Below, one piece after another: positions 1,690 through 63,498 of a stretch of DNA of 64,000 bases. Positions within the stretch are counted from its first letter, which is position 1; each line of letters starts with the position of its first letter. The notes below the pieces were generated by a model. That model did not search any database, was not told the DNA's origin, and was given only the letters and a program-made list of their open reading frames with translations. The stretch comes from Pleurotus djamor (Eukaryota > Basidiomycota > Agaricomycetes > Agaricales > Pleurotaceae), in contig JAPEVF010000180.1 of assembly GCA_029747585.1 (NCBI GenBank), positions 1-64,000 on the forward strand, written 5' to 3'. Made by a program: the position numbers and the translations under genes.

Positions 1690-3240
1690 GAGAGTCTCAC
1701 CTTGACATGTAAAGCACCTGCCGAAAGGAATGACCGAGGTGGTGGCGCGGTCGAGAAGGGAGATGACTCCCAGGTTTTGATGACGGAGACGACGATGTTG
1801 CTCAGCCGCCCCGTTCAGCTCACGATCATAAGACAGCTAAGGATAATAAGTATTAGTAATTTGCATGACATCAAAACAAGGGAGAGACTGACCTTGAGAT
1901 GTACGTGTACATGTACCTGTCACAATGATGGGAGCAAAGGAACGACCAGCATTGTGATCGAGGAAGAGAGGTGGGGCGCGTGTAGAAAGACGACGGCCTC
2001 GTTGACTCGGATGGTACGACTTGAACCGGCAACGATCGTAGAAAGTTTTGAGGGAATCCGAAAGATGGATGAGACAGGGCTTGATAGACAACGGCGGAGA
2101 GTGGTGTTGTTCAGATCAGAGGTGGTTGGTGGCGCGGTCAAGAGGGGCAGCGACCAGCCAAATGCGCCATAGCAACGCAAATGGGTAGTCGCAACGGCCA
2201 TTCGCGTGGCTCCAATCACTTCGACGATGGAGAAGAGGAGGGTCGTGCCTAGATATGGAGAGATCAGAACACCGAACAATGATTAAAGACAACAAGGGAA
2301 GGTACTCACAAAGGTTAGGTACTTCCAACACGTCAGTAACGTCTTGGAGGAGTCACAACGACGAGGATCGAACAGATACAAAAACTAAGGATTATAATGT
2401 CAGTAATGAACAAGAACGCGACGAGTATGGGGTACTCACATGCTCTAGTTGATAAGGAAGGTTCTCTGGTCAAGCCAGCGTCGTCTGGTGATCGTAGTGG
2501 CCTGTCCTCTCGCAGCATAGCCAACGGTGGCAGTTCGAACGAGCCACGAGCTGCATGGATAGGATGGACCTGCATCAAACACGCGTCAGACGTCGGCCAA
2601 CGCGTCAAAGGACTTGCTGACTTACATGGCAGCATGAAGGGCACTCATATGTAAGTGAATAGCTTCGAATCTCGCGATAGAGACCCTCGAAGTAGACGGA
2701 TCCTGGAAGGTAGGAAGGTTAGTAAAAAGATATAAAACCCTAACGCGATAAAGTCAGAACTTACAGGAAAAGCATGATGGGTACGTGCCCCATGGTCGTC
2801 GCCAATGCGAGAATGTACAGCACTAGTAAAATACAATCGTCAGCGAGGGTACTTGACCAGGAAAGGAGCTTCGACGTACCCATTGATGATGGCAAGAGGA
2901 AAGAAAGCAAGTCGGGCGCTTGGGCGACTAGTGCGGACTTGACTACAAGTCCCGACGTTCCCTAAACAAGACAGGGACATAGGAGTCAGCGATGAAAGCA
3001 ACGTTACCCGGAGAACAGCATACCACAGAGGTCGCGTAGGCGAGATGAGAAAGCGTTGATGGTGTTACGACGATTAGAGAGAGGTACGATGATGCGAGGT
3101 GGGAAGATAGAAGGACAGGATGGTGAAGGAAGGGAACAAGGGGGACGGGGAACAATGGGGACGGCATGGCGTAGGGGCATAGTGACGGGTCATGGTGGGG
3201 GGAAGTTGAGAGACGAGTGAGCTAAGGAGGAGCCTATATA
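1690..3240 (-). CDS. Candidate multi-exon gene, unidentified
   Basis: Read on the minus strand, this stretch has a TATATA box at 3240-3235 and a string of good splice donors (GTGAGTACC, GTAAGTTC, GTACGTCG) and acceptors separating short open blocks. One block near 2830-2780 encodes a hydrophobic run including VLYILALATT, so a membrane protein is possible. Candidate starts are at 3195 or 3167, but I could not join all blocks into one frame and recognise no family. The left end is uncertain. It may be a real intron-rich gene, a decayed copy, or a spliced non-coding transcript. Confidence 0.3.
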
Positions 3241-6200: not shown

Positions 6201-7310
6201 GCTTAACGGTTCCGGTAGTGATTGACTGGATGCTTCATTGAGCCCTGCCTTCCGAGGTCACGGAACCGGACTCGGACGTCCAATCAATGATGGGAGTGGA
6301 GGGAAGGATGTCCGATGAGGTTGAGCGCGCCCTCTCTGGGTTGGATTGGATATACAGTACCGACGACACTTGGGTTGACCCTCGGCCGTCGAGGCCATCC
6401 ACTACGGCCACAATTTGAGCTTGTCTTCTTGGCTTGATTACCTATCTTGTTGCTCCTTTCTTGACATTCTTGATGCAAATGACGCGGACTTGAAGTAATA
6501 ACCTTTGTATTTGTAGTCTACTAGCAACAGCTACGGGGGAGAAAATGACAATAACTGATGAACAACATGGTCAGCATGGTTCTGGCCCTCTCGAAGTCAT
6601 GACATACCTTTTGGCTATACTGAACATTTCCGAGGGCGTCGAAGATTCGGGGGTAGATGTGCAAATTGTCCATTGCTGCGTTCAACATCGCCGCCGCCGA
6701 TGAGCTCCAATAGGTACCCAAGGAACTGGTCCATGATGCATGATGTTGCCCATATTGGTCTCAGGCGGCGAATCGCGAAAGAACCACCCAAAACCCCTGC
6801 AGAAAAAGATAGAAGAAATCATAAATGTCAAGTCAATACGTATCGAGGTACCTTACCTAGAAATAGAACACCCACTGTCTCTATGACTCAAAGAAGATGC
6901 CCTGGAAAATATATTGCGTTCTTCTAGATGGCTGCGGTGAAGCTTAATTGACGGTGGAATGGAGGAGTTTTAATCATGTTTTTTCGGCGCGTGGGTGGAG
7001 GGTTTGTTTGGGCTGTACAGGCGGCCGGTGAGAAAGGAGGGAGGAGGAAGGAAGGAAGGAAGGACGGGGAAAGGAGATACCCAACTTACCTTCTTCCTTC
7101 TCCTCCACCATGTCAAACCGCAGTTGTTGTCGCGACCTTTGTCTTCATCGCCGTTTCTGATGTCTTCAAGGTTGTTTCTGCTCTTGTTGTCGTTCTGGCC
7201 CTTGCTGACCGTCTTAATCGTAGCAGCCGGCTTTCGTTGTCATTACCTACTGCTCAACGCGTCAGTCAGCTACCCCACCACTCAAGGCTCTTGCTGGCAA
7301 TGTCTTGACT
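3241..7310. other. Long stretch without a supported gene
   Basis: Many small overlapping ORFs occur here, none with family motifs. The best candidate is a plus-strand ORF with an ATG at 5721 that could splice into a Ser/Arg-rich exon near 5900-6150; joining is ambiguous, so it is not called. A Gly/Arg-rich GGAAGGAA run lies near 7040-7060. No RNA gene was seen. Confidence 0.4.
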
Positions 7311-7331
7311 CANNTCCGNTGNTCCCTACNN

Positions 7332-8081
7332 GGTCTCAAACGTCGAGGGATCCATCTCCTCCAATTCTTCATACGCAGCATCGAGAGCAACTTCATCGGG
7401 GCTGTCCGCGACGGAGAGCTCCTCGATGTAGGCTTCCAGCTTCGCGACCTTTTCTTTGGCCGAAGCAACGATGAAGTCGACGGCGTTGACTTCGGATGGT
7501 TCTGCTCCGCCGCTGACGAGGTATATATCGATGTGTGGTGGGATCTCGATATCCCGTTCTGCCATCGATTGCAAGAAAGTAGACTGGAAGCTTTGGGTTA
7601 GCTATGTCCGAGATAGACGGTGATGAGGTTGGACGCACCTTTCCTGAACCATTCTCTCCAAGTAGACCGTATCTCTGCCCATAGTTTAGCGCAATCTCAG
7701 CGCCCTCGATCAGAAGCCGTCCATGGAATGAGAGGGTGTACGAGTCGATCTTGATATCGCGACCTTTTGGGTCCGAGACCAAGACACCCGCTGCTGACCT
7801 ATCCATAGGCGATCCAGTCAATACCTCATCCTCTCGTGGGGGGGGTGTATGACAATTACGCACCTGTCCGTAGCCAGCGCCAACTTGGCCATGGCGTTCA
7901 AATCATCCGTACTGTTCGCTGCGCTCATGTTCGTGAGCGGCGTGTTGACCGAGCTCCCATTCTTGGACGTCGAAGCCGAGTCCACAGTCGTGCTGCCCGT
8001 CGTACTTGAGCCATTCATTTTGGCACTCTGCTTGGCCGCCTTCTCCGCAAGGCGCTTTTGTTTTGAAGCTGATGGGGCCAT
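7332..8081 (-). CDS. ABC-F family ATPase (ARB1/GCN20-like), truncated
   Basis: The start is the ATG at 8081. Exons are 8081-7864, 7798-7639 and 7583-7332, and their phases agree. The N-terminus is Lys- and Ser/Thr-rich (about residues 1-75), followed by the first ABC domain with the Walker A sequence GLLGENGSGKST, whose codons are split by the second intron, and then an acidic helical segment ending EEMDPST. This order fits cytosolic ABC-F proteins such as yeast Arb1, which act in ribosome biogenesis or translation and have two ABC domains but no membrane domain. The frame stops at unresolved bases (7313-7331) and nothing to the left continues it. The ABC signature, Walker B and the whole second ABC domain are missing. 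An assembly gap or misjoin explains this better than biology. Confidence 0.85.
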
Positions 8082-27108: not shown

Positions 27109-28850
27109 ATGGTATGTACTCCAAACCGACATGGTACCTTCTCCTTCGACGTGCTTACTCATGTCATTAAACTTGATTGTTTCCGAACCAGCAGACTAGA
27201 GTCTGTACCGACCTCAAAGCTCAAAGCGCGATCGACGCAGAGATCGCTAACCATATGAAAATCATATATGGTCTACGCACGCGCCGGAACACCTTTGCTG
27301 CGATTTCCAAACTTCCCAACGAAATCATGGCAAAAATCTTCGTTGCGTGCCAAACGCTATTCAAGCAAGTCCGCCTTACCCGATCAGCGATCATCCTTGT
27401 ATGTACAGCATGGAAGGACATCGCCATGAATACGCCACAGTTCTGGTCCCTCATCTCGTTTGGGGAGCCTCGGTGTATTCGCCAATCACTTGTACTTTCG
27501 AAGAAGACACCTCTTACCGTTACTTGCGACATCAGTTGCCTCTCCAGCGTTGGAGATGTGTTTGATCTCATCTGTGATGAGACATACAGGTTTGAGGAGC
27601 TGGTACTTCATGGGAGGCGAGATGATGCATCAAACCTCACTTCCCATATCTTTCGGGAGAATCCCAATCCACGCGCTCCCCTCCTGCGACACCTCGTGAT
27701 CATTATTGACCCATCACAGACCACCGGTAATAACAGGAGTCCCTTAATCTTGACATCGTTTTGGGGGGATTTGACCGCGCTCCGGTCAATGATGCTCCGT
27801 AACGTCCTCCCAGGAAGCGTCGTTTACCTACCATCCTTGACCGATCTCAAAATTGATGTCAGCAAGAAGGGTAAATACTTGTCCATTCCGCGGGTTTCTG
27901 AGCTACTCCGTAACATGCCTATGCTGGAAAATGCTACGCTCGGCAAAATCTCGTCTAAGCACCCCATCGAGCTTCCACATCCCCTCGAATCACCGATACC
28001 TCTTCCCAAGCTGTGTAGGATCCAGTTAAACATGAAACGCCTCAGGGAGTCGAAGCTACTAGATCACCTCGAGATCCCAGACGCCGCCATCGTTGGGTTG
28101 AAATTTCTGGCCAGTGGTGATGAGAACGAGGTCGAGGAAAGTATTTCTCATCTCCGTAGGTTCTTTTCCAGTCGCTTCCCAGAGGACGCATCACTCGAGG
28201 TGCGCGTCGACGTGGACATCGGACTAGATCAAATCTATTATGTGGTATACAACAATGGATGCCAGTTCACGAATATGATAATCACACCCTTTCCATCATG
28301 GCTTCGATGGGAGAACAACCTCTTGACGTCATTGCCACTCGGCGCGATTCACCATCTACGTCTGGAGGGAGATATGGGGGACGATGAAGCCCTAGCTTGG
28401 TCAAACTTTCTTCCACATCTGACTCACCTCAAGAAAATCACTTCGTGGAAAGTAGGAGTACTCCGCTTACTCGCTGGACCCGATCCATCATCCCCCAATG
28501 TAACAACGGCAGATTTCAGTAACCTGGAGCTGGAGACTATTGATTTGAACGGTGACTCCGACGCGGACGATAGTCATTGGATCACCTTCATCTCTATCTG
28601 TCAGACTCGTTTCGAACTCGGGAAGCCCATCAACAAGGTTTGTATCCGAGGTTGCAATATCTTGAAGAGACGACTTCGGCAACTTGCATGGTACACAGAG
28701 GTAGAGTGGGATGGCGGTAAATTTTCGGAAGATGAGGTCAACCAAGATGATATTTGGGAAGAGGAGTTGTATGAGGATGACTATCTGGAAGACAAGTGGA
28801 CGGACTGTCGAAAGAAGGCGAAGTCACGAGGACAAAGAAGAAAAAGATGA
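27109..28850 (+). CDS. F-box family protein, about 552 aa
   Basis: The start codon ATG (27109-27111) appears to form the whole first coding exon; an 83-nt intron (27112-27194, GTATGT...GCAG) follows, and exon 2 runs 27195-28850. The protein begins M-T-R-V-C-T-D-L-K-A-Q, has a helix typical of this agaricomycete family (AIDAEI...), then the F-box ISKLPNEIMAKIFVAC near residue 45 and a VCTAWKDIAMNTPQFW segment. Long leucine-rich stretches follow (LTDLKIDVSK, LTHLKKITSW), and the C-terminus is very acidic and then basic. It is expected to act as a substrate receptor in an SCF ubiquitin ligase; the substrate is unknown. A paralogue at 32,966 has the same exon layout and a relic at 23,391 matches its 5' end. 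Confidence 0.8.
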
Positions 28851-32965: not shown

Positions 32966-34577
32966 ATGGTAAGCGATCTTCTAGGATGATTTCATGGTGG
33001 ATAAAACTGACCGCACGGTACACTAGGGGAAACGCACCGACTTGAATGCTCAGCGGGCGATCGACCAGCAAATAGCCACGGAAATCAGAGCTCACAAAGA
33101 ACGCGTCAGGGCGCTGAAGTCGTGCCGAAATGAATATTGCGCGATCAACAGGATACCAGAGGAAACGTTGACGTACATCCTTCTGCTGGTGAAGCGTTTG
33201 TCCGAGGATTCTCATGTTGGAAATCACGGTTCTGCACGTCGGGACTGGTTCAATATTACGCGTGTGTGCAACTCCTGGCGAAAGCTGGTCATGGACTGCC
33301 CTCGCTTCTGGACCTATGTCGACTCGTCATCGCGACATGCGCACCGTATGTTGACCCTTGCGAAGGCTGCCCCCCTTCATGTTGTACTTCGCACACCGCC
33401 GAGGCCGACCAAAAAGTTTTGGTCCTTGGCGACCAATGTCATGTCCCGAACATCCCAAATCGAGAACCTGGATATCAACCTCCCTCAGCAGCAAGTCATG
33501 TCACTCCTTGCTTTATCGTCAACCCAACGTGCTCTGATCCTCCAAGACCTTATAATTTGGGCTGACAACCCCGATGATGTCAATGGATCGGAGGCTGGGT
33601 GTTTGTGGTGGGACATGCCTAGCCTACTTTCCTTGAACGTTTCACACGTTCCCTTACCCGTAGAGCCTCTTCATGCGCCACGTCTCACCCAGCTTCGACT
33701 CTTTTCTTCATTTGGAATTGCCATGCCGTGGTTGCTCGATACGCTGAGAGCGACGCCTCTCATGGAGACTATCAGTGTCGAAGACCTGGGTCCTGAGCCA
33801 ATCGGACTTGAGGCTTCCTCGGTGTCTCTAACCCATCTCCAGAAAATCTACATCCACGCGGACTGCTTCAGCGCAGTCAATATCTTCAAATACCTCAAAT
33901 ACCCAGTAACATGTACCATGGCCATGTTTGACAAGATGGACGGCTCGGAGACCACTGTCGCTGGTTTACGAGAAACCTTTTCGCGGTTCACGTCTAACTA
34001 TCTCCCCTCCCCCCTCGAGCGCATTTACATCATGTTTGTTGGAAGGTTCGGACTCTATGTGTACCGCCCCGGAGACCACTACCCTCGCTACGACCTAGAT
34101 GGTGCCGATCCATTCATTTCTTTCAATGCTCCCCCTTCTTCGAAGCCTCCTATCTCTGCATACATTGAGCTCTGCCATGCTCTCCCGTTATCTCATACTC
34201 GTATCCTTGCATTGGAGGGTGCTATGGGCAACTTGATCCTTCCGGCGGTGTTGTCGCTCATGATTGCTTCCACCCATACGAAAACCTTGGAGTTGATACA
34301 CTGCGACCCGCGGCTTCTTACCCACCTTTTCCAGACGTCCAGTGATGATCCACCCGTTCTCCCTGAGCTTGAATGCTTAATCTTCATGGGAGATATGTTC
34401 CATATCCATCTGAATTCAGCTTCAGAGCCGCTCGAATTGCTTCCAGTATTGTTGCAGCTCCTCCGAGAGCGCAAAAGGCTAGGCATTCCTATAAGGACGC
34501 TGAAATGCTGGCATTGCAAGAGGCTACCTCCCTCAGATATAAAGAAGCTGCATCAGGAAAAACCTATTTTGCTATAA
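32966..34577 (+). CDS. F-box family protein, about 517 aa
   Basis: As in the paralogue at 27,109, the first coding exon appears to be the start codon alone (32966-32968), followed by a 58-nt intron (GTAAGC...ACTAG) and exon 2 at 33027-34577. The protein begins M-G-K-R-T-D-L-N-A-Q-R-A-I-D, then a basic helix, then the F-box segment INRIPEETLTYILLLVKRL and VCNSWRKLVMDCPRFWTYV. Leucine-rich segments follow (LTQLRLFSSF, LTHLQKIYIHA, HTKTLELIHCDP). The C-terminus ends in KLHQEKPILL at the edge of an AT-rich AAAGCT repeat field and lacks the acidic tail of the paralogue, so the original end may have been replaced. Expected role: substrate receptor of an SCF ubiquitin ligase. Confidence 0.78.
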
Positions 34578-43170: not shown

Positions 43171-45348
43171 ATGCCAGGACCGAGTAACGGACCTCCCCGT
43201 CCTAAAAAACGTCGTCAGAAGGACACGACCGAGGCTCCGCGCAAACGAGGAAACCGTGGTGATTTTCAAGGCCGGCGGTTGCAGCATTTGGACCAAGCGT
43301 TCAGCGACTACATGGCGGCATCCAGCATCTCAAGCACCAAAGTAACCGAATGGTTCAACAACGACTTCTTCCCTGGCTGGTTTGAGAAGTTTCCTTGGTA
43401 CATTCCCCTCACTGAGGAGGTGCCTGTCGACATCGATGTTGAGAAGGGGGAGGCTGAGCTTTCTGCAGAAGTCAATGATATGAAGGAGGACGCCAAGAAG
43501 GCTATTTGTTCGGTACGTTGTTGAGAAGCCCCCTTCGTCCCGGTCAGCTAGCTAACACATCCTCCAGAAACTCAAGACTTGGTTGAATTACCAACGGACG
43601 GCAAGGAAGGAAAAGGCGGCGACAAACGCATGGCAGCCCTGGCTGAACCAGCTTCGGGATGCGAGCTCTGTCCGTCCTCGAAGACTGAATGACTGGCAGT
43701 ACTTCATCAAGTTCGAAGTGTTCTTCGAGGAGGTTGAAGCTGCGTTCAGTGCAAAGTGGCCGCCGGATTCGTTCCCTAACGAAGAAAGGTTGAACAAAGT
43801 ACGAGAGGTCGCCGAGGAGCTTTTAAAGTCTAAGGGTGATGAGGTGAAGCAGCGTATCCACCAAGAAGCAGACGCACAACACAATGAAGCAATGGCGAAG
43901 TGGAACAAGGGAAGCTGGACGGAAGATGTAACTGACCCTGAAGAGCGAGCGGCGTAAGCGCACGTTGCCTTTCACTCACTCTCACCATGCTGATGCCGCT
44001 GCCAGAGCAATCAACGCCCTATCTCAAGTAGTTCAGCCTCTACTTGATGGGATACGTGCAATGACGGGTCTTTACATCGGGATGTTTGCTGTCGATGTGA
44101 CGTCTGATGAGTCTGCTGCCCTATCTGACCGAATCCATGGGTTTTAGTGAGTATTCCAAAAACGATTGTTCAACTTGTCCCGTCGCTAATTGCTTTCACT
44201 GACAGCCTCGACGCTGGGAAATGTAGTGATGGGAAAACATTTTCGAAGTATGACCCGAAGGGCTTTAAAGTGTGCTCGAAGCTTTTTGCAAGGTTTGTAA
44301 TGGCTGCTGGCGGCGGTGAGTGGGTTTCATCTACAGCATTCATGGCGATATTTACACAGTCTCTAGTTGGTTCTGCCCCAGCAGATGAACCACTTTCATA
44401 CCAGGACATCCTCAAAGAAATTCTTCCAGCCTCTGCGTTCCTCGACCTCGCAAACCAAGGTTCTTCACAAGCGCACCCCATGACAACCCCTCATATTTCA
44501 CGCATTCTTCCCCGCACTCCCATAACCGCCTCTTCCGCGAGAACGAACCCCTCTTCTGCCCCGACAGGCTCCACTTCTTCCTCCACTCAAGCATCTGCAG
44601 CGTCTCAAAATCCGCTCGAAGCAACGATTTCCCAAATTCGAAGGGAATTTCATCAAGTCGGAAAGGCTGCTGATGTCTCGGAGGAGCTTATTCTCGAACT
44701 CGCCAAGCTTCCTCTACACGAGAAAACCACATGCCTCAGCGGCCTCTTGAAGACTTCGGCATACGAACTCCAAAGGGAAAGCAAGCTTGCCAAGAATCGC
44801 GTGCTCTTCACCCAGCTCGGTTTTGACGACCTTGCTTTCCCCGCGCGTCCACAGAAGAGGCGAGCGGACGAAGACGACGAAGACGAAGACGAGGCTGCCT
44901 ACCAACCTAGCACGCCCGATAGGCGTCGGAAAGGGAAGGCCCCAGTGCAAGTGCGTCGCTCTTCGCGGCATGCTCAGCCGGCTGAGGCGCGAGGCGAGGG
45001 GGAGGATGCCGTTGTTGCACGTCAGACGGGGGACAGCAGTGTTGTGGTTGATGAACCAATGGTAAGTTTCCCATTTATTCGAGTGCAAAGTATTCATTAA
45101 GTCTTCCTTTTACTGCCATTTAGGATGTCGACGACGAGCCGCCATCATCCACTGAAGACTCCACTTCCCTGCCACCCCTCGACTTTGAACCGGCTAGTCG
45201 CGAAGGAAGTACGCCTCCTCTTCCCTCCCCACCTTCCACAGTAATACCAGCTATTTCACTCAACACTGTTCCAGGAGTTGTTACATTCTGTTGTTTATGG
45301 TTTGCAGGTACTACGTGGATTACAACAAACAAGGTAGACTGTTTCTAG
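43171..45348 (+). CDS. Member of an expanded agaricomycete family (GDF...FPW motifs), 616 aa
   Basis: Six exons join in phase: 43171-43512, 43568-43953, 44006-44146, 44206-45061, 45124-45208 and 45308-45348. The N-terminus is basic (RPKKRRQK), followed by RGNRGDFQGRR, a WFNNDFFPGWFEKFPW segment, and helical Lys/Glu-rich blocks. The middle has a KTFSKYDPKGFKV segment, then a Ser/Thr-rich region and a basic, acidic-flanked segment (QKRRADEDDEDEDE) like a nuclear-localisation region. Proteins of this layout occur in large numbers in mushroom genomes, often near transposons; their function is not known to me. The last exon lies inside the first units of the minisatellite that the neighbouring transposon interrupted. 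In another frame those units encode an 11-residue repeat (GRLFLVVNNGE / GRVWLVIN). Confidence 0.7.
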
Positions 45349-45389
45349 TGGTTAACAATGGAGAAGGTAGAGTGTGGCTGGTAATCAAC
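45308..45389 (+). repeat. Left part of the GGTA minisatellite
   Basis: Three units beginning GGTACTACG, GGTAGACTG and GGTAGAGTG. The last is identical over 25 bp (45,365-45,389) to a unit at 53,258-53,282. The array is cut here by the transposon and resumes at 53,147. Confidence 0.85.
45383..45389. repeat. Left target-site duplication AATCAAC
   Basis: Seven bases directly outside the left terminal inverted repeat, matched at 53,147-53,153 outside the right one. If one copy and the element are removed, the join recreates a normal minisatellite unit. Confidence 0.8.
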
Positions 45390-45402
45390 CTCTAGAAAAC
45401 CC
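45390..45402 (+). repeat. Left terminal inverted repeat
   Basis: CTCTAGAAAACCC, an exact complement of 53,134-53,146. Confidence 0.85.
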
Positions 45403-45571
45403 GATTGGAGCGGTTATTCCCATCTCTTCCCCCCTTTTGGCTGGTTCACGTAAGAGCTTGGACCGGCTGATGCCCTACTTAGGCAAGATTTTCGGACTCG
45501 GGGATCCCGGGCATAATTTGAGAAAATGAGAGAAGGCGGACCGGGACGGACCGTGGATATTGCCCAAATTT

Positions 45572-45602
45572 GTCATATCTAGGTACAAATTTGGCATTAT
45601 CA
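45572..45602. repeat. 10-bp subterminal hairpin
   Basis: CCAAATTTGT and ACAAATTTGG separated by about 11 bp, about 180 bp inside the left end. A transposase-binding or cruciform role is possible. Confidence 0.6.
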
Positions 45603-45950
45603 GACAAAGATGGGTGTTATCTTTCGATCAAGTGTAAATTCTTCAAGTCGAAAGCGCCCAGGCGCCAAATTATATTTCTGAGTGCCAAGTGTTTGCGGTG
45701 CATCCCACTGCAAGACCATCTATTTGAGCAGCCTCTCTGTGGCCACTGAGTACTATCTAGCATCGTCTCAAATGCGTAGGCCGCCATTTTTGCTCTGTCG
45801 CCTTGGCATTTCCGGTTATCTCTAGCACTCTAGCAGAAGGTATTGAAGTCGTCACCCTTCCTTCGACAAGGGAAACCTCCAGTATAAAAGCTATCTCATT
45901 GAAGCTCTGTCTGATCAATATCAACTCGATTTCTGCTCCCCCTCCTTTCT

Positions 45951-48900
45951 ATGTCTGAACCTATCTTCTGCTACTGTTCTACATGTCGGGGGACAAAGTC
46001 TCGCACTGTCAAGACAGTGCAGGAACATATCCGCCGAGACAAGAGGGATGCCGATTTATCCGTTCAAAATCCGACGCACGCCAACTCCCTACGCGATTTT
46101 GCTCAGAGGAACGAATTGATGTTAGCAAAGCAACGTCAACGTAAGTACAATTATCACCTGTATTCTCACAGGCACATCCTAATCACTAATCATCATTGTC
46201 TCTTTTCCCTTCCCCATCAGCTCGCATCGAGTCCACTATAACTGCGGTGCCCCCTTCGGACCCAACAGCACCTCAAAATAGTGCGCCACGGATTCAGGAC
46301 AGCGAAAGCGACGACCCATTCATCTCCAGTAAGTCTTTCTTATCATCGTTGCGCAGATACCATCTGACGCAATCTGCGCTCCCATAGGTGGCAGTAGCGT
46401 GACTATGCCTCTTGATCAGCTGCATATCTGTGGTGTTCCAGGTGAGTTTCCCTTTAATCTAGTCTGCGCCGACCCATTGACTGATTATTTTTTGTGCTAC
46501 CAATTTAAGTTGCCCAAATACTTGACCTCCCCCTTGACAATGATGCCGTTGTTTTCATGCCAAAAGGTAAGTGATGTTTTTACATCCCCTCGAGGAGAAA
46601 TTTTCTTACTCTCGTTCCAGAAGATGACATTGCATCCGACGAACTTAGGGAACACGATGCGGATATATCAATGGCAGATCCTCTCGGCGAAGTCTCCGAC
46701 TCGACGGAAAGCCACTCTAACTCTCTCGACGCGGGGCATGGTGATGAACTCAACAGCCCCGGTCGGAGTGGCGTAGCGGCCGCTGGGAATGACTTTCCTG
46801 ACGATGGTGTGTCAATAACATCGGGTACCGATATACTGGACGACAATTGCTTCGCTACTGAGCGCGAACAACCCGAAAGGGAGCGTATGCACTACATTGG
46901 TGACGAAGAACCAGATGAACTGGAGCTTGTCAAGGACGACGACGAAATCAACACACATGGAAATCCCCTCCCCCTTGATGCTAACTCTGTCTCTTTGGAT
47001 GAGCTTCGCGCGCATATCATCGGGTCTTATCGGTGTCCACCAAATGGCCAACCAAGTATTCACCCCTCTGGTCCCCAGCACCTCACCTCCTCTGAGAAAG
47101 CATCATTGCGCCACTACCTTGCCTGGAAGCGTAGTAACTCAACGACCCTTGCATACAAAGAGTTTGCCGCCTCACTCGAAGCAACAACAGCATCAAGCTC
47201 CGTCAAAATCATGGGGCTCAAAGCTGTCCGACAACTAGCCCAAGAGCTGACGGGTATTTTCCCAAAGAAGGTCGACATATGCGCAAACAATTGCCTTGCA
47301 TTTACCGGTGCCCATGCAAAATTACAACATTGCCCCGTTGTCCTGAAACGAGACACTCCCATGCGTCAGGCGGGCAGCATCGCGCGCAAGAAGGGGGATA
47401 TATGTGGACATCCTCGGTGCATTCCTTATAAAGGGCCGGGGAAAGAACGCAACCCAAAACGCTATGCTCAAATGCTGGTCCTTCCGATCTTCGAAACCAT
47501 TCGTGCCATGTTTTCGAACGCCAAAACCGCCAAACTATTACGACACCGAGACCAAGTTATGATGGACACATTGAAGGCTTTGTATCAGGGGACACAAGGG
47601 AGGGTCTACAGCGACTTCGGAGATTCTCAAATCCACATGTCGCTTCGCGCCAAGGGACTATTCCAGGATCCCCGTGAATGTGCTGGCGCGATAACCACCG
47701 ATGGCGCTATGCTTACGCTGCAGAAGCAGTCTGAAGTTTGGGTGGCTATCCTTATACTTTACAATCTNCCCCCCCGAGGTTCGGTATCGTCTCGAAAATC
47801 TCATCATCATGTTCATAATCCCTGGTCCTTGGCCCCCTCGATTGATCGAGACCTTTTTCTACCAATCATTTGTCAACATGCTCCAGGCAAGCGAGGGCAT
47901 CTGGATGTACGATGTTTACGCCTCCGAACGCTTCGTATTCAAATTCCACCTCGTTGGACTTCTAGGCGATCTGATGGCCAGCTACAAGTTTAATGCCGGC
48001 ACGGGCACTAGCGGTGTTCATGCGGACATCTATACAAATGTTGCTGGCGCGAGGGCAACAGCTAAAGGCAACCGCCAGTATATTGTCATCTGGAGCACCG
48101 ACCTCATCCGTGTCCTCAACCCAGAGCGACCTCAGTACGACTATTATGATATCCCCTGCCGGAATGAAGCATTCTTTCTTCAAATGATTCAACGGCTATC
48201 TAATGCAAAGGATGAGAAGCAGCGAGTCCTCATCGGACGCGAAACCGGAATCACGTGCGTCCCACTTTTCGCCGCCAGTACGGGCTGAACGTATCCCACC
48301 TTCTTTCCTCTTGACTGTCTACACCAACTGTATGCAAATAATGCCAATCACCTCTATCGCTTCAACCTCGAGCTCGGCATCCTTCCGCCAGATAAGCATC
48401 GCCGATTTGGTGACATGCTGGTCCGCGCCATGCACACACTTCCAACGGTATTCAGCACATCCGTCAGAAATATCGCGGAGAAGCTTAACACGAGCTACAA
48501 GCTTTTTGAATGGATGGCCATTGTCCACTGGTACATTGGGCCGTTCATGATTGAGCTTGGTGTTGACAACCGCTACACTGCGCTCTTCTCCAAGTTTTCT
48601 CTGATTGCAGAAGTGTCAATGCGTCCTCAACCATTTACCGACCGTCAGCTTCACGACTTGACCGAGCTCATCATCTTGTTTCTCATCGAGTATGAAATTT
48701 TATACATCCGTTCTGTCAAGGATATTTCTCGGGGTCGCATCGTCACCTTCCAGCTTCTCCAGATCCCGCGGATAATTCGAGCATGGGGTTCTTACCGATC
48801 CGTTTCCCAAGGTACCTGTGAGCGAATGATTGGCTGGTTGGGGCACAAGGTTCGGACCGACAAAGCTCCATATGCGCAGCTCGCGAACATTATCCTTGAT

Positions 48901-49521
48901 CAAGAAATCGCAAAGTGTCTCCTTCTCTATTACCCTGACTTGGATGTAAACCGCCGTCAAACGCCGCCGCCTCGATTGCGTGTCTTCTCTCAGCTGCAAT
49001 TCAACCTTCGCGACCTCCAAGAGTACAGTGAACTCTCTCAACACCTACCCATCCTCTCATACTTCACGCACACCACATTTGGCCAAATTGCGAGCCTCAA
49101 AGACATCACTTCACGATTATCTCGATGGGGAAAGCTTCAGCTTGCCAATGGCAACACCCTTCAAAGTCAAATGCGCGAGTCTACGGTCAAGAACCTAACA
49201 CGCTCATCTCGGTACTTCGAAGGTATTGTTGATGGCCGATCGGTCTTCGGAGAGGCAATCGTCTTTTATCTTGTACGTTCCACAAAGCAGATTCTGGTTG
49301 TCTGCCGGGAAATCAAGAAGGTCGAGCTCGTGATGGATATCTGGTTACGTGGATCTTTTTCCTTGGACCTCTCTGTGTACGATGCCGCGATGATCTCGCC
49401 ATCCCTGATAGGAATTTGGCAGTATGGGGAGCGCGTTTACATTATTCGAAAGCATGCTGCTCAAGCTCTACTTACTGCCGCGGACTCTGCGATACCTTCC
49501 GAAACTAATACCGAAGATTGA
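45951..49521 (+). CDS. Tnp2-like transposase with one in-frame stop
   Basis: Exons 45951-46140, 46221-46328, 46388-46441, 46510-46566 and 46621-49521 join in phase, giving about 1,100 residues. The N-terminus has a small zinc-finger-like cluster (CYCSTC with a later His), as in many basidiomycete Tnp2 proteins. Next come VDICANNCLAFTG and a KRYAQMLVLPIF segment, the ITTDGAML block with a likely catalytic Asp, LPPEVRYR...IPGPWPP, and FPLDCLHQLY, which corresponds to the D-x-MH-like motif of the family. The protein would act in the nucleus, binding the element ends and cutting DNA with a DDE-type core. An N before a C run at 47,768 shifts the frame; dropping it restores the reading. A TGA at 48,286-48,288 lies in frame, 8 codons before FPLDCLHQLY, so this copy may be inactive. 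Confidence 0.82.
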
Positions 49522-49672
49522 TGTACTAAATGAATTCTCTGTGTAGTGCTCTATGGTCCTTTTCTAATGCGTAGTTTGTGTTTCTCTTCCAAGATAGGAG
49601 CCTGGTCATGTGATCGAAATCTAAACTTGTTGGTTCTTCTTTTGTGCCTTGTTGTTCTGTGCGTCGTCCAGC

Positions 49673-52578
49673 ATGTCTACCGTGTCAAAGGCAACAACGT
49701 CCACATCTTCCAACGTGCCATCGTCGTTTAGCTTAACGTCAAGCATGCTGATCCCGGAAAATCCATCGACATCCGACCCAGACTCTGCTGAGTCTGAGAT
49801 GCACCCTGTGCCAGGTGACGCATCCGCTGTTGTTCCTCCTTCAACACAACCTTCTCTGCAACCATTTCCTGTGGCCAACGATTCGCCATCAGCTTCGTTC
49901 ACGCCCATCCTTGACCTCATCATGCAAAATGCCGAATCTGGCGGGCGTATCGAGCCGGTTTTTGCAAAATGTCTATATGGTCTGATTGACACGTTGCGCA
50001 CGAACGCACTCCTTGTGCACAGCGAAGGCGAGAGTGCCAGCGCTCTCCGGGAAGAACTCAAAGAACTTCGACGATCGCACCTCCTTTTACAAGGAGCATA
50101 CGAAGCACTCCAGAATGGCCATCCCATTCCTGATTCAGTTCCTCTAATGCCGGGTGCCAATTCTATTCACCTGTATGTGTCCAANTTTTTTTTTAACGAA
50201 GCTATCATTGATGTTCCCGAAAGTGAAACACCTTCATTGTCCCCCAGTGATTCGGTCTCGCAGGGTGTCCACACCCCGCTCGATGGTGATTCGGACAGTG
50301 AGTCTAACCTCGGGACCAGTGGTATTACCAGTGGTTTGCCATCGTAAGTCGTGCGTTTCATGTGTTCCCAACTGCTACTTATTAATTATTCTATATCAGA
50401 GTGTATACAACTGGCGACGAGTGGTCTCCTACACCTACGATCACCTCCCCCAAGTGTCTGAATGATCTCACCTGGGGAGAGCTACGAAATCAGACCCATG
50501 CAACCTACGTCTCACTACGTACCCCGTTCAAGGGACTTGTTCCAGTCCGAGCTCTCTGGACCCGTAAAATCGTGAAGAATACACCCGGAAACGTCAACGT
50601 CCTTCGACGTCCCCTGCGTTGGTTTGTCAGAAACCTTGACGGCTCGTCCGTCCCCGAGGCTCTCTCGTCCATGTTTAACACCATGCAGACTGATTCCGAC
50701 ACGATCATTCGTGTCCTTTGGGACTACACGACACCTCTGGTTGCCCTGGGGGATACACGAGGCGTTGTTTACTTTAGGAAGCAACACACCGCAACTTGGC
50801 ATGGCGCGATCGCATTGATGGAAGCCCTCCACCCTCTTTTGCAGATATGTATGGATCATTGGAAGGCTATCGCAATTTTGTCGGGTTCTTTGGAGAAACT
50901 GTCGAAGGAACAAGAGAAACCAGCCACTGATGCGGCGGTGACGGGGTCAGCTACATCCAACGCAAAGCCAACGACAAAGAACAGGAAAGGCAAGAAAAAG
51001 GCGGCGAACCCACCTGTAGCATCAGAACCTATTGCCGCCGCCCAGCCGTCTGCCCCGTCTGTCCCAGAGCCTCCCCGTCGTTTTGCCCTGACCAAGTCAC
51101 CAAATGCTACGATCCGGGCAGCACACACCAACACCTGCTCGCCTTTTCGACCAGCCGCAAAACGTGACCATATATCGGACCCATCGACACCCACACGACC
51201 ATCCGCAAAGAAACAACGGAAGCGTATGTTCTTTTTCTCACTATTTTCATACATCTCCTGACTATGAAATGACCAGCTATCCCATTGTCTTTACCTTCTG
51301 CCTCGCCAGCATCTTCGCCTCGATCGGATGTTCCCATGGATCAAGACAATGTGCTCTCCTCCTTTGTGGGTGATGAGCAACTCATCAGGCAAACGGCTGC
51401 GGCACACGGCCTTAATTCGCACCCCCCTTCTTCTGGGCCTTCTCTCAAGACTCTCGCCTCCAGCCGTCTCTTCGTCGATGTGTCTCACCTCGCCCTTCCA
51501 ATAAGTGCTACTTTTCCCCTTTTGTTGCTTGGTGAAGCTTTTACTAACACCGTCATCTTTTGTCTAGTCTCAAGCTTACGATGTAAGTACTTTTTATTAT
51601 CAAATTATCAAAAGCCGCACTCACCGCCTCGACAGCTTGGCTCCAATTACATGGCACTGAAATTCCATCGGAAACTATTGATAGTATGATCGAGTTAGTC
51701 AACTCCATGTCCGTTGATCCCCAACACCTGCCAAGGACGCCATCCGACCACGCTCGCCGTCTCAAACACCTCCTTGAGTCCCTCAACCCAAATAATCCGG
51801 AATTGGATGATGACGACAATAATGACCTTCAATTCGGCCACTCAGCGTACTCCGGTCAATGGCGCAGCGCAACAGAAAGCTGGGACGCTATCGGCAATAC
51901 GGAGATGGCACTCGCCCTTCTTGCTGGCGGTATCCGAGTCGCACAAATTGCTGACTTCATATGTGTCAAGCGCCGTGTTCGATTCCCTCAGAACGTGTTC
52001 CCCAAAACTGCCATTTGCAACGTCTACCTGGCTGAGATGGTCGACTCAATCAAGGATGCTTGGGTCAAGTCCAACGGAGCTGCCGCGCACCACGTCCCCG
52101 AAGCCAATCCAGCTGCCACGGCCCCGCCGCCGACCTCAAGCTCAAGATCAACAGGCCAGCCAGGCCCTCGTCGCGGGACTGGCAAAATCCTGACAAGCTA
52201 TGCACTTGAAGATGGTAGTCTGAAGGACGTCGATCCCGCCCTCATCCCAATATTCAAAGCCCTCCTCAGGGAAGACCTCCCCGCCCTTCTCATGAAGGTT
52301 AAACCAGAGCTGAATGGAACTGTCCTTCGTAGCGCTCTCCGACCCAACCGTGAGTTTCTTTTTTCACCTTCCTTTCCAATCTAATCACTCTTCGGTGTTG
52401 TAGTTGAGAAGCAGATAGACCAGCTGTATTCATCCAGTGATGCAACTATGAAAGCATCTATCATCGCAGAGTCCGAACCGCTCATTATCAAGGTACCGAC
52501 TTATCGTAATGTGAAATTTTAAATCGCTAACATCATCCTCTCCAGCGTCAGGAGCTTCGAGCCGCCGGTAGAAAGTAG
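49673..52578 (+). CDS. Second protein of the transposon, unknown function
   Basis: Starts at the ATG at 49,673, 151 bp after the transposase stop. Exons: 49673-50343 (with an N at 50,185 and possibly a short intron there), 50400-51223, 51277-51504, 51568-51582 (15 nt), 51615-52349, 52404-52492 and 52546-52578. The N-terminus is Ser/Pro-rich, then a coiled-coil-like block (LREELKELRRSHLLLQG), a conserved-looking segment (WGELRNQTHATYVSLRTPFKG), a basic, Ala/Pro-rich hinge with Lys runs, a segment YSGQWRSATESWDAIGN, and a C-terminal helix ending RQELRAAGRK. The basic runs suggest nuclear location or DNA binding. It could be an accessory transposition protein, like TnpA of En/Spm, or captured cargo. 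The 32-nt intron after the 15-nt exon is unusually short. Confidence 0.6.
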
Positions 52579-53133
52579 TCAGCCTTGCGCGGGAATGTGC
52601 CGGCAGATGGGGCCTGGGGAGATTTCTTCGTGTTGCAATCGCCGTTTGACCGCCATTCCATATTCCATTCCCCCCTCTCTTGATGATTTCATGACTTTTT
52701 ACGACCGCTATCTTACTTGTTTTCGCTCGCACGTTGGTATCTGCTTGTTTTGATGCTTTTTTTTTTGCTTTATTTCATGCACTCGCCCGCTCTACACATA
52801 CATATACCTGTCATTACCCGGCTTTGTTTTGGAAAATTCATGCTTTTTATCATTTAAATTCGTCGTCGCAAAAAATGAAATTTTGAAATGGTTTGGCTCA
52901 AATATGTCAACTTTAGTCGGTAATAAGCAAGCTTTCGGCCAAATGCCTTGAGGGTACACAAATTGGATCATAGCTTGCCAAAAGCGCACCTAAAATCCTC
53001 TAAACTACTTGGCCCGATTCCGCCCTCGAAATGCGTGATTGTGTCAAATTAGTGTCCAATTTAGGCAAGCTGAAAAAACAAAACGGTATTAGCTAAAAAG
53101 TCTCTCCCGATTTGGTCCTAACACCTGCTAAAT

Positions 53134-53146
53134 GGGTTTTCTAGAG
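53134..53146 (-). repeat. Right terminal inverted repeat
   Basis: GGGTTTTCTAGAG, an exact complement of the left end at 45,390-45,402, followed directly by the target duplication AATCAAC at 53,147-53,153. Confidence 0.85.
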
Positions 53147-53740
53147 AATCAACAATGAAGTGGGTATTGGGAAAATGTATTCAACAACAATATAGGTATT
53201 TTGGGATGGTATTCAACAGCAATATAGGTATTTTGAGATGGTATTCAACTATGAAGTAGGTAGAGTGTGGCTGGTAATCAACAATGAAGTAGGTATTGTA
53301 GGGTGGTATTCAACTACAAAGTAGGTATTGTAGGATGGTAATCAACAATATTCCAGGTACTAGAAGGATATAATCAACAATGTAGTAGGTACTGCTAGAT
53401 GGGAATCAACAACAAAGCAGGTACTAGGGGGATATATTCAACAACAAAGTAGGTATTGCTGGGGTAGTATTCAACCATGAACCAGGTACTATTAGGATGT
53501 ATTCAACTACAAACCACGTACTACTAGGATATATTCAACAACAAAGTAGGTATTGCTAGGATGGTATTCAACAACCAACCAGGTACTAGAAGATTGTATT
53601 CAACAACAAAGCAGGTACTATAAGGATGTATTCAACAACAACATTGGTACTCCTGGGATGGTATTCAACAATGTAATCAACAATATCCTTGGTACTCATA
53701 TGGTGGTATTCAACAACAAACCAGGTATTGCAAGGGGCAT
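53147..53740 (+). repeat. Right part of the GGTA minisatellite
   Basis: About 17 units of 32-33 bp, each starting GGTATT, GGTACT or GGTAGA and containing ATTCAAC or ATCAAC near the middle, ending in a variable AAGTA, AACCA or AATATA. Units differ by several substitutions, so the array is not young. It continues the three units at 45,308-45,389. Confidence 0.9.
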
Positions 53741-53754
53741 AGATATGAATATTG

Positions 53755-54470
53755 AGTGTGGGAAATTATTATTGACTGTGGGAATAATCTACTGACTGTG
53801 AGAAGCTCCTATACAAATAGTGGGAAAAGCGGTCAGTAAATACTATTGATTGTGGGAAATATTTATTGACTGTGGGAAATAATTTATAATAGGAGAAACC
53901 CCTTTTGAAAACAGTGAAAAAGCGGTTCACTAATGTTACTGACCGTGGGAACATTTTATTGACTGTGGGAAAAAATCCTATAAACAAAATTTGGCCATTA
54001 GAAAGAGCCTAGTGGGTTTCGTGACTAAACTGGTCTCAGAAACATAGGGTGCCTACTTAGTTTTGGAGAAATTAAGCAATTTCTTCGGTCAATATTGACT
54101 GTGAGAAAGATTTATTGACCGTGGGAAAAATATTTTAAACAAAAATCGGTCATTAGAAAGAGCCTAGTAGGTTTCGTGACTAGAATGACCTCAGAAATAT
54201 AGGGTGCCTATTTAGTTATAGAGATTTTAAGCAAAACTTTTCTGCTTCACTAAGTGTGAGACAAAGTTATTGACTGTGGGAAAATATTTTCTTTAAAAAA
54301 GCGTTCAATCAGAAATGGCATACTAGGGTTTGTGGTCCAATTCATGTTAAGCTCCCCAGTCACTATTTAGCTATTGAGATTAAAAGTCAAAAACTCGGTC
54401 AGTTAGTCTCTTTACTGACTGTGAGAATATCCTATTGACTGTGGGAAAAATAAACTTTAAGTCGGTCAAT
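53755..54470 (+). repeat. Tandem 155-bp repeats and scattered GACTGTGGGAA motifs
   Basis: Three consecutive units start at about 54,001, 54,156 and 54,312 (spacing 155-156 bp); each has a GAAAGAGCC-like head, a TTTAG...GAGA middle, and a pair of TTGACTGTGGGAAAA-type boxes. The box pair also recurs at 53,755-53,970 in more degenerate context, making about a dozen boxes in all. No gene. Confidence 0.8.
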
Positions 54471-59629: not shown

Positions 59630-62600
59630 ATGAAGAGTCGAACGGCACCGAAGTATTATCTATGCAACTGCTCCGAATGTTTCCAATGCATCTCTGTCTG
59701 TCCCGGCACTCAATCGGTAGTCAAAGGTCGATACCTAGCAGGTCGCGAATACCGAAAGCACGTCAAACAGCAAAACTTGATTGGCGTGCAGATCCAGCCC
59801 GACCTTCCGCAACCAGACTCGTTCAATTCATTGAATGACAACCTTCCGGATCCCATTGAAGAGTTCCAACGTTCAATCAAGGAACGATCGTCGCCATCTC
59901 AATCAAACCGCCGTCAACGACGTGCTTCCTCTAAGCCCTTCGACAAACCATCCGACAATTTCTACGCGAAGCTCAATGCTATCCAACTGAGACTGAATGA
60001 CTACTCGCGTAGCGCCTTACAAGGGCAACTTGTATTTTGCATACCACCATCGACCCTTCCACCCTCAGAGATGATGGAGAACCAGCTTCGCCTCAATGAA
60101 TCAGATGAACAGAATCAAACCATCCTCAATTTCGAACGCTGGATCAATTTGACAAGAAACCACGTTCTCAACGGACCCCAGAACACCGTGCAGATTCGAA
60201 TCAAGAAAACGGTCGTGCTGAAAGAACTTGAGCAAGCAACGAGCGATTTAGTAGGCTTTAAACTATCGCAATGGCGTCAACAGCGGAAGTCAACAAAAGA
60301 TAAACACAGATACAAAGAAATTGACACATGTTCGTGTGTTTCTGGTTCATCCACTTGTACTCGGGGTTAACTACTTCCCAACAGCCAACATCCTCTCCAA
60401 AAATTATTCAAGTTGGCCGCCTGGCGTACTCCTGACGTACTTGCTCGTTGTGTCGCTTTATATCCTATCCCATGTATTACTCAAATCCGCATCTGACGTC
60501 TTGCCATGCATCCGTGGCGTGTTAAACCTCTCCAGTGATGAAATTCATGAGGACATACCTCCCATCATTGATGCGCGTACAGTACTCAAGCGCCTATCCC
60601 TCGCAGAACCTCCCCACAAGGCGATTGCGTGCTGTCCTCAATGTTGGGCGGCATACCCCTTTGAACCTGGTAAAATCGGCACACTACCCCTTCAATGCAC
60701 AGCAAGAGAGACCTCGGGTAGCGCAGAATGTGGCACTCCCATCAGAAAACAGACTGCCCAAGAACGTGATCGGGTTGAGAAAGAGTTCCTGTATCACGAT
60801 TTCAAGCAATGGTTGGCATGGATGTTCTGTCGAGAAGATATTGCCGATGAATTAGAATGGGACCCTCTCTCTGATGAAGAGCGCCGCGCAGGTGTGTTGA
60901 ACGATATATGGGATGGATCCATCCTGCGCGATCTTCAAGGGCCTGGGGATGCGGACGATCGCTTTGTCGTGAAGCTTCCGGGCGAGAGGCGATTAGTTTT
61001 CAGCTTCAACTACGATTCCCTTAATCCCTACGGAAATCGAGCTTCGGGGAAATCTGTCAAGATTACTGGCATGTATCTTGCTTGCCTCAGTCTGCGGCGG
61101 CATATTCACTTTCTCGTAGAGAACGTCTTGCTGGTCGGGGTAATCCCTGGACCCGATGCTCCAGCCACAAGTCAGGTCAATCATATCATCCGCCTACTCG
61201 TCGATGACTTCCTTGACCTATGGTATCACGGTGTATATTTTACTCGGACTCTACGGCACACATCTGGGTTACGGGTACGCTGTGCCATAGTCCCAATTGT
61301 CTGTGACTTGCCCACCGCCCGGCAGCTTTCGGGGAATGCCTCCGCTACCTCTGAGCAACAGTGTAATGAATGTGATCTGCCATTGAGCGAGGTCGACAAC
61401 ATCGACTACAGAACCTGGCCCATCCGATCGAAGAAAGAGCATATGAGACTGGCTTCAGACTGGAAGAATTGCGCAACCGTCAAGGAACAAAATGCGCATT
61501 GGAGCCAGCATCACGTTCGCTGGTCCGAATTCCTTCGTCTGCCGTATTGGGATCCGACCAAGCACGTCGTCATCGATTCCATGCACGGATTTTACCTTGG
61601 ACTCTTTAACCGTCATTGCTGTATTGTTTGGGGCATGGATGCAAGCAAAGCCGATAGCGGGGGCACAAATGATGAACCAAGTCATATTCCAAAACCACTC
61701 ATGGATGCATCAAGGTTCCTCCTTCGACACGGTACCAAGCCTTCCCTCCAAATCCTGGGATTAGACGTGTTACGGCAACTTTGTAAGGATGCAGGACTGC
61801 GTTACTCCTCTCGATTCACAAAGAAACAGCTGTTAGACTCTTTGGGGGTGTATGTGAGTCATGCAGTCCATTTGACGACAGCGAGCCCATACTAATAATC
61901 TACCAGCGTATCTCTAAGTCTTGGTTTGACGCCGAAGACAATTATCTTGGGGACGATGGCCAGGCATCACAACCTCCCGATACTGTTGCTAAGGAAGCAC
62001 AAATCGTCTTCGAAAGCGCAACCAAGTCATACATCAGCAACCAATTGAGGCTTCCCCTTGCTCGAGCAATTTGTCGCCTATACCTGCAACTTCCAAACGT
62101 GGATGGCTTGGACTTGAAGTCACTGAAGGCAAGGATAAGAGAAGAAGTATGTACGGCTTTTGTTTCCTCGCTGGATAATATTTCTCTGACAATCTCTTAG
62201 AGATATCAATGAGGCTTCACCGACGAACGGTATCAGTTGATCCAACCTGCGGCGGTGACTAGCAAGAAAGGCCCTGTTCTCGGGCGCTCCGTGTGCAAGA
62301 GCATCGCCGATGATACATCAATAACTTCACTGCCCACATGGGTTAGTCGAGGTCCCCAAAAGCCTGGGCAGGCCAAACAAGGGAGTCTCAAGGCAGACGA
62401 ATGGAAGACTCTCTGCACGATCCAGCTACCTATCACGTTGATACGACTATGGGGAAGCAGTCTCGCTAATAGCCTTCAAAAGGAAATGCTTGAAAACTTC
62501 ATGGATCTTGTCCACGCCGTCCGTTTAGCAACGCTGAGGCAGATTTCATTGGACCAAGTGGACGAATATGAAATGTATATGCATCGATATCTGACCAAAC

Positions 62601-63498
62601 TTCTGGACTTATACCCAGAGACATCCATCTCCCCATATCAACACCTTTCTCTTCATTTTGGCGACCATCTTAGACGATGGGGGCCGACTCACTCTTGGCG
62701 ATGCTTCGTATTCGAGAGGTTTAACGGGATGATGCAAAGTATTCAAACAAATTCAAGATTCGGTGAGCATCTCACCCCCCGAATGGAATTGAGTTCTGAA
62801 TCTAGTCACAGGTGAACTAGAGGGAACCATTTTTCGTCACTTTTGGGCCGGACAGCGTCTCTGAGCTATGTTCAGCGACTACCAATTACCTGATGAAGTC
62901 CAACCCTACATCGATGAATTGTCAACGAAGCATGATTCAAACATTCGCGCCACTTTCATCCAAGAGAACCTTGAATTTAAGGATGGCTTCACCTTGCTCA
63001 AGCCNAAAAAAGCCTAAGATCGAAGAACTTGACAAGCGTATTCACAAGATACTTGTCCGCCTCATCAAATCCAACGTAAAGGTACCCATAAAGTGGGCTT
63101 CGGGAGAAGTAAAACTCTTAAATGGACTCCAACGCCTTGGAAAGACATTCCGACCCATGTCAACAGACGGCCAGATCATTTTCCGTGACACAGATGGTCT
63201 GGCTGCCGGTTGGATACGTTCAATTTTTACCCACACGAGGACGAATGCCAGAGCAAAATAAATGACCCAAGTATTTCTTCATGTTGTCAAACTGCAGGAA
63301 GCTCAGTCCGTTTTTGATCCCTATCAGCAATTCGCTGCTGGAGGACGACTATACCAACACGCCGACATTCACCATGAAGATGTGGTGATTACCTGCTATG
63401 ACATCATTTGTCATTTCGCTCAAACGGTCGTCAATGTCGCAGGGTTACCGGAACCACTTTTACACATATTGCCTCTTGAATATATAGTACATAACTAG
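59630..63498 (+). pseudogene. Decayed Tnp2-family (CACTA-like) transposase
   Basis: Begins with a Cys cluster (YLCNCSECFQCISVC) near 59,660. The main block, from about 60,330 to 61,855, has the family signatures CCPQCWAAYP, FNYDSLNPYGN, VGVIPGPDAP, RCAIVPIVCDLPTARQLSG, LRLPYWDPTKHVVIDSMHG and LGLFNRH, then an exon from about 61,907. Membership in the fungal Tnp2 family is clear. The copy is broken: TGA at 62,210-62,212 and 62,862-62,864 lie in frame, an N precedes an A run at about 63,005, and a frameshift plus stop occurs near 63,240-63,261. A later block (LHDVVCHFA-like ITCYDIICHFAQT) runs to 63,498. No terminal repeats were found; one end may lie outside the window. It is distinct in sequence from the transposase at 45,951. 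Confidence 0.82.

Follow-up and report, generated by a model that had tools for sequence, protein, structure and literature searches.

An element at positions 45390-53146 of a 64,000-nucleotide stretch of Pleurotus djamor DNA (assembly GCA_029747585.1, contig JAPEVF010000180.1, positions 1 to 64,000, the whole of which is called the window here) is read from its sequence, with a probability of about 0.9, as a copy of a two-gene cut-and-paste DNA transposon lineage of the Tnp2 clan, with ends beginning with CTC and with target site duplications of 7 base pairs (bp). This lineage seems to form a branch of the CACTA/Tnp2 clan not described before, set apart from the known groups by the descriptions given of them. 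The assembly was found to contain 55.9 megabases (Mb) in 1413 contigs, and the contig holding the window is denoted C508.

Ends, duplication and insertion site of the element

The element was found to contain 7,757 bp with perfect inverted ends of 13 bp (CTCTAGAAAACCC and its complement), flanked by the 7-bp word AATCAAC on both outer sides, at exactly the positions given in an earlier note on this DNA. Only two matches of CTCTAGAAAACCC or its complement were found in the window at up to one mismatch, with 0.04 expected, and no third match of the exact 13-mer was reported across the 55.9-Mb assembly. When flank repeat lengths of 2-12 were tried, 7 alone was found to match. Removal of the element with one AATCAAC, which had been claimed to restore a unit of the surrounding minisatellite, was found to give joined flanks matching the array unit at 53247 in 48/59 positions, the best result among removals of 0-14 bases, followed by 45 (0 bases) and 44 (4 bases).

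Taken alone, the duplication of the window copy is suggestive only, because the array to the right of the element was found to contain AATCAAC six times; the array is rich in AATCAAC/ATTCAAC, and the word was counted 17 times in the window against 10.3 expected. The duplication at this copy was confirmed as real by independent copies, described below, and a chance match of AATCAAC is unlikely since the word fits the target preference seen at unrelated sites.

Full-length copies in the genome

A protein search with the C-terminal transposase piece of the window copy gave seven further loci in the genome, five of them of the same lineage, and a search with the C1040 protein gave six lineage members (C508, C812, C1040, C1139, C18, and C566), followed far below by other Tnp2-type genes. 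The transposases of C812, C1040, and C1139 were found to be 35-61% identical to that of the window. Inverted ends at a set duplication length were searched to the left and right of the four genes with both flanks, at a threshold of at least 11/14 end bases. At the 7-bp setting one pair was found in each of the four same-contig searches, every pair matching at 11/14 or more and starting with CTC[T/A]. The full copies (Table 1) were 7.1-7.8 kilobases (kb) long, with inverted ends matching at 11-13 of the first 13 bases and beginning with CTC. Copies ending elsewhere had been named in the earlier note as an observation that would speak against the element, and C812, C1040, and C1139 were found to share the CTC[T/A] ends as well as 7-bp duplications.

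In the control at 7 bp, for which the left and right sides were taken from different contigs, 5/56 pairings were found to match, and none of the five first matches printed began with CTC[A/T]. At 8 bp, matches were found in 0/4 same-contig searches against 4/56 mismatched pairings, and at 6 bp in 2/4 against 13/56, the same-contig ends at 6 bp being unlike each other.

Short copies and target preference

Further ends were searched with a pattern made of the target centre (TSA) and the end, which matched 28 times, compared with 6 times for the reversed pattern. Sixteen of the 28 were followed up: eight belonged to the four full copies, two to C526, and one each to C625, C858, and C1207, followed by C860, for which no partner end was found within ~3 kb, and C557 and C845, for which none was found within ~1.5 kb. 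C557 and C845 were found to be the same in sequence over the 300 bases compared.

The short copies were 0.9-1.1 kb in length and contained no transposase and neither full gene, with ends as in the full copies. C625 was found to have four more two-ended relatives (C1207, C858, C659, and C814), the duplication of C1207 being perfect (CCTGATC). C526 is tied to the lineage beyond its ends because it contains an antisense stretch like the first exon of the second gene of the element (gene 2; 28.6% identity, 119 amino acids).

Ten two-ended copies were thus counted, exclusive of C626 (interrupted, with decayed ends) and C838 (one end). Copies with related ends had been looked for in the same genome, as the earlier note had proposed, and all ten were found to contain CTCTA.AAAAC or CTCAGTAAAAA ends, the exact 13-mer of the window copy being unique; at these ends C812 additionally matched at 2 bp and C659 at 4 bp. 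A perfect 7-bp duplication, likewise proposed as a check on other copies, was found in 7/10 (four full and three short copies) and not in three. The real test of the end motif is given by the four full copies, because end sequence or DNA similarity had served to find the short ones. The 7-mer CCTGACG was observed both to the left of C858 and to the right of C659 (in element orientation), neither copy having a perfect duplication, and this sharing might reflect recombination between copies.

The seven sites, oriented alike, were GTTGATT, CTTGACT, GTTGAAG, GGTGACT, CTTGAGA, CTTGACA, and CCTGATC. Position 1 was occupied by C or G in 7/7 and position 2 by T in 5/7, followed by the presence of TGA at positions 3-5, so that the site consensus is (C/G)nTGAnn, mostly (C/G)TTGA. 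The four pattern-independent sites were found to contain 10.1 bits of information, which was reached by 1/20000 random sets of equal base frequencies. The array word AATCAAC agrees with this target, which would account for the minisatellite as the insertion site.

Transposase of the lineage

The transposases of C812, C1040, and C1139 were found to contain long open frames (997, 951, and 1021 amino acids, respectively) with no introns in the core, and in five relatives the matched stretch was free of stops, unlike that of the window transposase. Transposase_21 (PF02992) was found to match 4/4 relatives scanned (C812, C1040, C1139, and C18), with a best expectation value (E) of 5.8e-13 and with 37.1 bits for C812 against a cut-off of 28.6, which bears out the Tnp2-like assignment of the earlier note. 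The Plavaka model PF18759 was not listed for these four proteins at E up to 1.

Five family rows were aligned with 12 other Tnp2/Plavaka proteins from the same genome. The first two aspartates (Asp), the D..H region, and a candidate glutamate (Glu, in EW) were found to align in the family, the assignment of the last Glu being uncertain; with regard to the H(3-4)H motif, the conserved D..H region aligned and the histidine pair was not confidently assigned. A C(2)C motif between the second D and the last E was present in 0/5 family rows, against C(2)C or C(3)C in 11/12 of the others (the exception being L036), and the window's own transposase sequence was likewise found to contain no CxxC.

In the core tree, which took 6/30 fetched Plavaka loci and left out C1286 (partial) and the broken copy of the window, the five family rows formed a clade with support of 99/98, apart from Plavaka and other Tnp2 proteins of the same genome. 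Leaving out the C1133/C538 group gave a support of 96/97, and leaving out Plavaka gave 98/96. The placement of the family beside the C1133/C538 group may be due to long-branch attraction, and the nearest neighbour is uncertain because the branches are long. A tree placement had been suggested together with the claim of a distinct Tnp2-type lineage, and with this well-supported group the claim stands within the Pleurotus djamor genome, to which its scope is limited.

The Plavaka model was found to give 90 matches in the same genome (gene pieces counted apart), and a search around 30 Plavaka loci at 2, 3, 6, 7, and 8 bp, covering 1.5 kb on each side, gave no pair over the threshold. No relative was found in pattern-based scans of viral and bacterial/archaeal collections or in a sequence search of PDB. 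A second Tnp2-type transposase was observed in the window at 60255-62800 (gene 60321-61892), with a Transposase_21 match at 2e-9, a weak Plavaka match, and an intact CxxC; no clear ends were found for it within the window. The genome-wide family scan missed this gene, so the scan counts are lower bounds.

P and Dada elements are characterised by duplications in the 6-8 bp range. The ends might come from another superfamily of 6-8 bp duplications (hAT, P, Dada, or KDZ), such lengths being typical of these groups (7 bp in hAT7 of rust fungi and 8 bp in Zisupton; PMC12730594), with the Tnp2-like gene as a passenger or a nested older insertion. No hAT, KDZ, P, or Dada domain and no other transposase superfamily was listed by Pfam for the four gene-1 proteins at E≤1 or for the gene-2 pieces at E≤5, and four copies diverged to 35% identity were found to contain this gene pair enclosed by ends of one kind, from which it would follow that ends and genes have travelled together for long. 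An origin of the ends from such a superfamily is therefore regarded as quite unlikely.

Evidence against the lineage and its weighing

Several observations weigh against a lineage with CTC ends and 7-bp duplications. The whole evidence base is one genome, and the transposase piece of the window copy scored 15.4 bits in Pfam, under the cut-off. The duplication was imperfect in 3/10 two-ended copies (5/7 in C858, 4/7 in C659, and 1/7 in C814), and C526, C625, and C1207, which were found with or through a pattern demanding TSA, were excluded from the test of the target centre. C18 and C566 gave no pair with CTC ends, their contigs stopping before the 3′ end could be expected; these two were found to have three blocks in common at 80-94% identity. 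C566 was found to contain a pair at 977-7923 with non-CTC ends (GCTTACTG.. / GCTTGCTG..) matching at 11/14 and with the 7-bp word AGTCATT (TCA centre), which was left uncounted and which could be due to chance or could mark a lineage member with other ends. Lastly, pairs with duplications of 2-5 bp were found around C812, C1040, and C1139, matching at 12-13/14 (or 13/15) end bases.

These wider pairs around three of the four genes, the membership of the transposase in the Tnp2 clan, and the frequency of AATCAAC in the window and in the array would all fit an ordinary CACTA/Plavaka element with its true ends elsewhere, for which the 13-bp repeat and AATCAAC would be chance matches in a word-rich array. 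The 2-5 bp pairs, however, span 10-17.5 kb and their ends differ from one another, and at the window copy no pair over the threshold was found at 2, 3, or 5 bp. Three unrelated sites were found to contain the same kind of ends, 7-bp duplications, and the same two genes, the short copies share the ends, and the copies are not assembly duplicates, since their flanks and sequences differ. An ordinary element with its ends elsewhere is thus highly improbable. The earlier note had itself raised the chance match in a word-rich array, against which the independent copies with their own 7-bp duplications speak; a chance origin of AATCAAC was rejected on the strength of these copies together with the control of mismatched pairs.

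Comparison with known systems

CACTA elements usually show duplications of 2-3 bp. Like CACTA/EnSpm elements such as CNIRT6, the CTC-ended lineage was found to contain Transposase_21, DDE-type residues, and a two-gene layout (TNPA comparison in PMC1636069), and unlike them it contains CTC instead of CAC/CACTA ends, 7 bp instead of 2-3 bp, and no CxxC. The TET-bearing EnSpm elements of rusts are described with CAC ends and a 3-bp duplication (PMC12730594), Cryptococcus CNIRT6 with 3 bp, and CNEST, of a separate CMC group, with TA, 2 bp (PMC12810828). PlavakaA is described with TGT..ACA ends and 2 bp, and PlavakaB with CATCA..TGATG ends and 2-3 bp (PMC12730594); the lineage shares with both a fungal DDE transposase of the Tnp2 clan and differs in containing neither TGT nor CATCA ends, no 2-3 bp duplication, and no PF18759 match, and in its separate clade. 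Plavaka membership was rejected on the basis of the ends and duplications and of PF18759 not being listed at E up to 1 for the four proteins scanned.

The CMCT elements are described as having in common the motifs C(2)C and H(3-4)H, as ending mostly in CA..TG, and as duplicating 2-5 bp of their target (Kojima 2025, PMC12730594), unlike the lineage, which has 7-bp duplications and neither C(2)C nor CA..TG ends. Animal TRC elements contain CCC ends, 2-bp duplications, and a conserved CxxC, in all of which they differ from the lineage, whereas Transposase_21, an L-D-x-x-H-like motif, and a second fast-evolving gene are shared with SmTRC and fungal TRC (PMC1636069). The clan is described as including Transib, the source of RAG1 (PMC12730594). 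The duplication length is that of hAT7, and unlike hAT7 the transposases of the lineage had no hAT domain listed. Abr1 of Agaricus bisporus is a short element with 7-bp duplications that might be linked to the CTC-ended lineage. Abr1 is described as related to a hAT-type element (PMC10051438).

The lineage is best called a Tnp2-type variant lineage, because its ends, its duplication length, and its CxxC region depart from those of CACTA, Plavaka, and CMCT. In the accessible part of the openly available full-text literature, with Repbase and subscription papers outside this scope, no description of a 7-bp Tnp2/CACTA/EnSpm lineage was found. Tentatively, the lineage might form a separate superfamily-level branch of CACTA/Tnp2, which, after losing the CxxC ligands, would have shifted its strand-transfer spacing from 2-5 bp to 7 bp and acquired a new CTC end and the STTGA target. 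If this were true, the CxxC region would contribute to how far apart the two strand-transfer sites lie in the clan.

Genes of the element and subterminal words

Both genes of the window element were found on the + strand (Table 1). The first exon of gene 1 opens with a cysteine-rich segment of weak likeness to PF13963 (Transpos_assoc; E=0.0022, below the cut-off). A second assembly N was found at 50185, inside gene 2. The window copy is probably unable to make its own transposase, the broken frame indicating either a dead copy or an error of the draft assembly at those positions. The earlier description as a complete transposon thus holds for the ends, the duplication, and the two genes, and fails for the transposase reading frame.

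A homologue of gene 2 was found in the same place, order, and strand in C812, C1040, and C1139, its last large exon being 43% identical in C812 and 27-28% in C1040 and C1139. No Pfam match was found for gene 2. Weak matches of gene 2 were also observed at C17:728-1039 and C379:7974-8279 (L026 and L027), two very similar genes around which the CTC end was not found in the fetched stretches; they may be second genes belonging to some other transposon lineage, for example that of C18/C566.

The En/Spm layout consists of TNPD plus TNPA, and gene 2 resembles the TNPA gene in position alone. In position it also resembles SmTRC-PrA (PMC1636069). By a weaker inference, the gene-2 product may be an accessory protein of the kind of TNPA in En/Spm, perhaps one that binds the ends.

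The word CCCGAGTCC, a possible binding site noticed after the fact in the window copy (C508), was also found in C812, at 104 bp from the 5′ end, and in C526, at 105 bp from the 3′ end. The word CAGCACCAA was found in 4/12 ends, a count of four being reached by 1/500 shuffles, and two of these four come from the related copies C1040 and C1139, whose 5′ ends match. With C1139 excluded, the top shared 9-mer was CCCGAGTCC, in 3/10 ends, which was equalled or exceeded in 80/500 shuffles. The shared subterminal words are not clearly above chance.

These word counts and the lack of a Pfam match would also suit a gene 2 that is a host-directed factor or a captured gene with no role in movement. Its presence, identically placed and oriented, in each of the four full-length copies, the first-exon-related piece kept in C526, and the similar distance of CCCGAGTCC from one end in three copies argue for a role in movement, and a captured or host-directed gene is considered a possible but less likely explanation.

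Proposed mechanism and significance

In the proposed mechanism, the transposase would cut the element out at its CTC ends, and the excised element would be joined across a 7-bp staggered break at a (C/G)nTGAnn target, repair of which would yield the 7-bp duplication. The 0.9-1.1 kb copies with the same ends would presumably have been moved in trans by the transposase, and the window copy would have inserted into a minisatellite with a repeat word that agrees with this target.

Superfamilies of DNA transposons are told apart by duplication length and end motif, which mostly vary little within a single transposase clan; a lineage of Tnp2 type that duplicates 7 bp would run counter to this rule. 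Annotators expecting CAC ends and 2-3 bp would miss the lineage or file its short copies wrongly as hAT- or P-like. The lineage would also provide a naturally occurring contrast for studying how cut spacing is determined in the clan, and in vitro tests of it are made possible by its target preference.

Table 1. Coordinates of the window element and its parts (window positions) and of full and short copies (positions in the named contig)
Feature	Position	Strand	Remarks
Left target site duplication	45383..45389	.	AATCAAC, 7 bp; reverse complement GTTGATT agrees with family target (C/G)TTGANN
Left terminal inverted repeat	45390..45402	+	CTCTAGAAAACCC, 13 bp
Candidate protein-binding site	45494..45502	-	CCCGAGTCC; 105 bp from left end; noticed after the fact
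Gene 1, Tnp2-type transposase	45951..49521	+	Short introns split the 5′ part; splice sites by eye
Open frame, N-terminal half of transposase	46575..47765	+	35-60% identity to five genome relatives
First conserved Asp (TTDG motif)	47700..47702	+	Located by comparison with relatives
Assembly N	47768	+	Reading frame shifts there
Second conserved Asp (GDL)	47968..47970	+	No CxxC after it, unlike most other Tnp2/Plavaka proteins compared
In-frame stop (TGA) breaking the transposase	48286..48288	+	
C-terminal transposase part	48289..49521	+	Open frame of 410 amino acids; candidate catalytic Glu 48508-48510 (FEWM)
Gene 2	49673..52581	+	About six exons by eye; 3′ end approximate
Right terminal inverted repeat	53134..53146	-	13 bp, exact complement of the left
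Right target site duplication	53147..53153	.	AATCAAC, 7 bp
32-bp minisatellite, insertion site of the element	53147..53720	+	About two more units left of the element, 45321-45389
Full copy, C508	45390-53146		Duplication AATCAAC
Full copy, C812	13578-21351		Duplication AGTCAAG
Full copy, C1040	83745-90887		Duplication CTTCAAC
Full copy, C1139	9049-16306		Duplication AGTCACC
Short copy, C526	39198-40294		1,097 bp; TCTCAAG on both sides
Short copy, C625	8917-9826		910 bp; duplication CTTGACA

Other features of the window

Two F-box-like proteins were observed in the window at 27177-28847 and 33042-34574, with weak matches under the Pfam cut-off. The minisatellite was found to be adjoined at 53753-54290 by another repeat array, which contains TTGACTGTGGGAA words and has a period of 155 bp.

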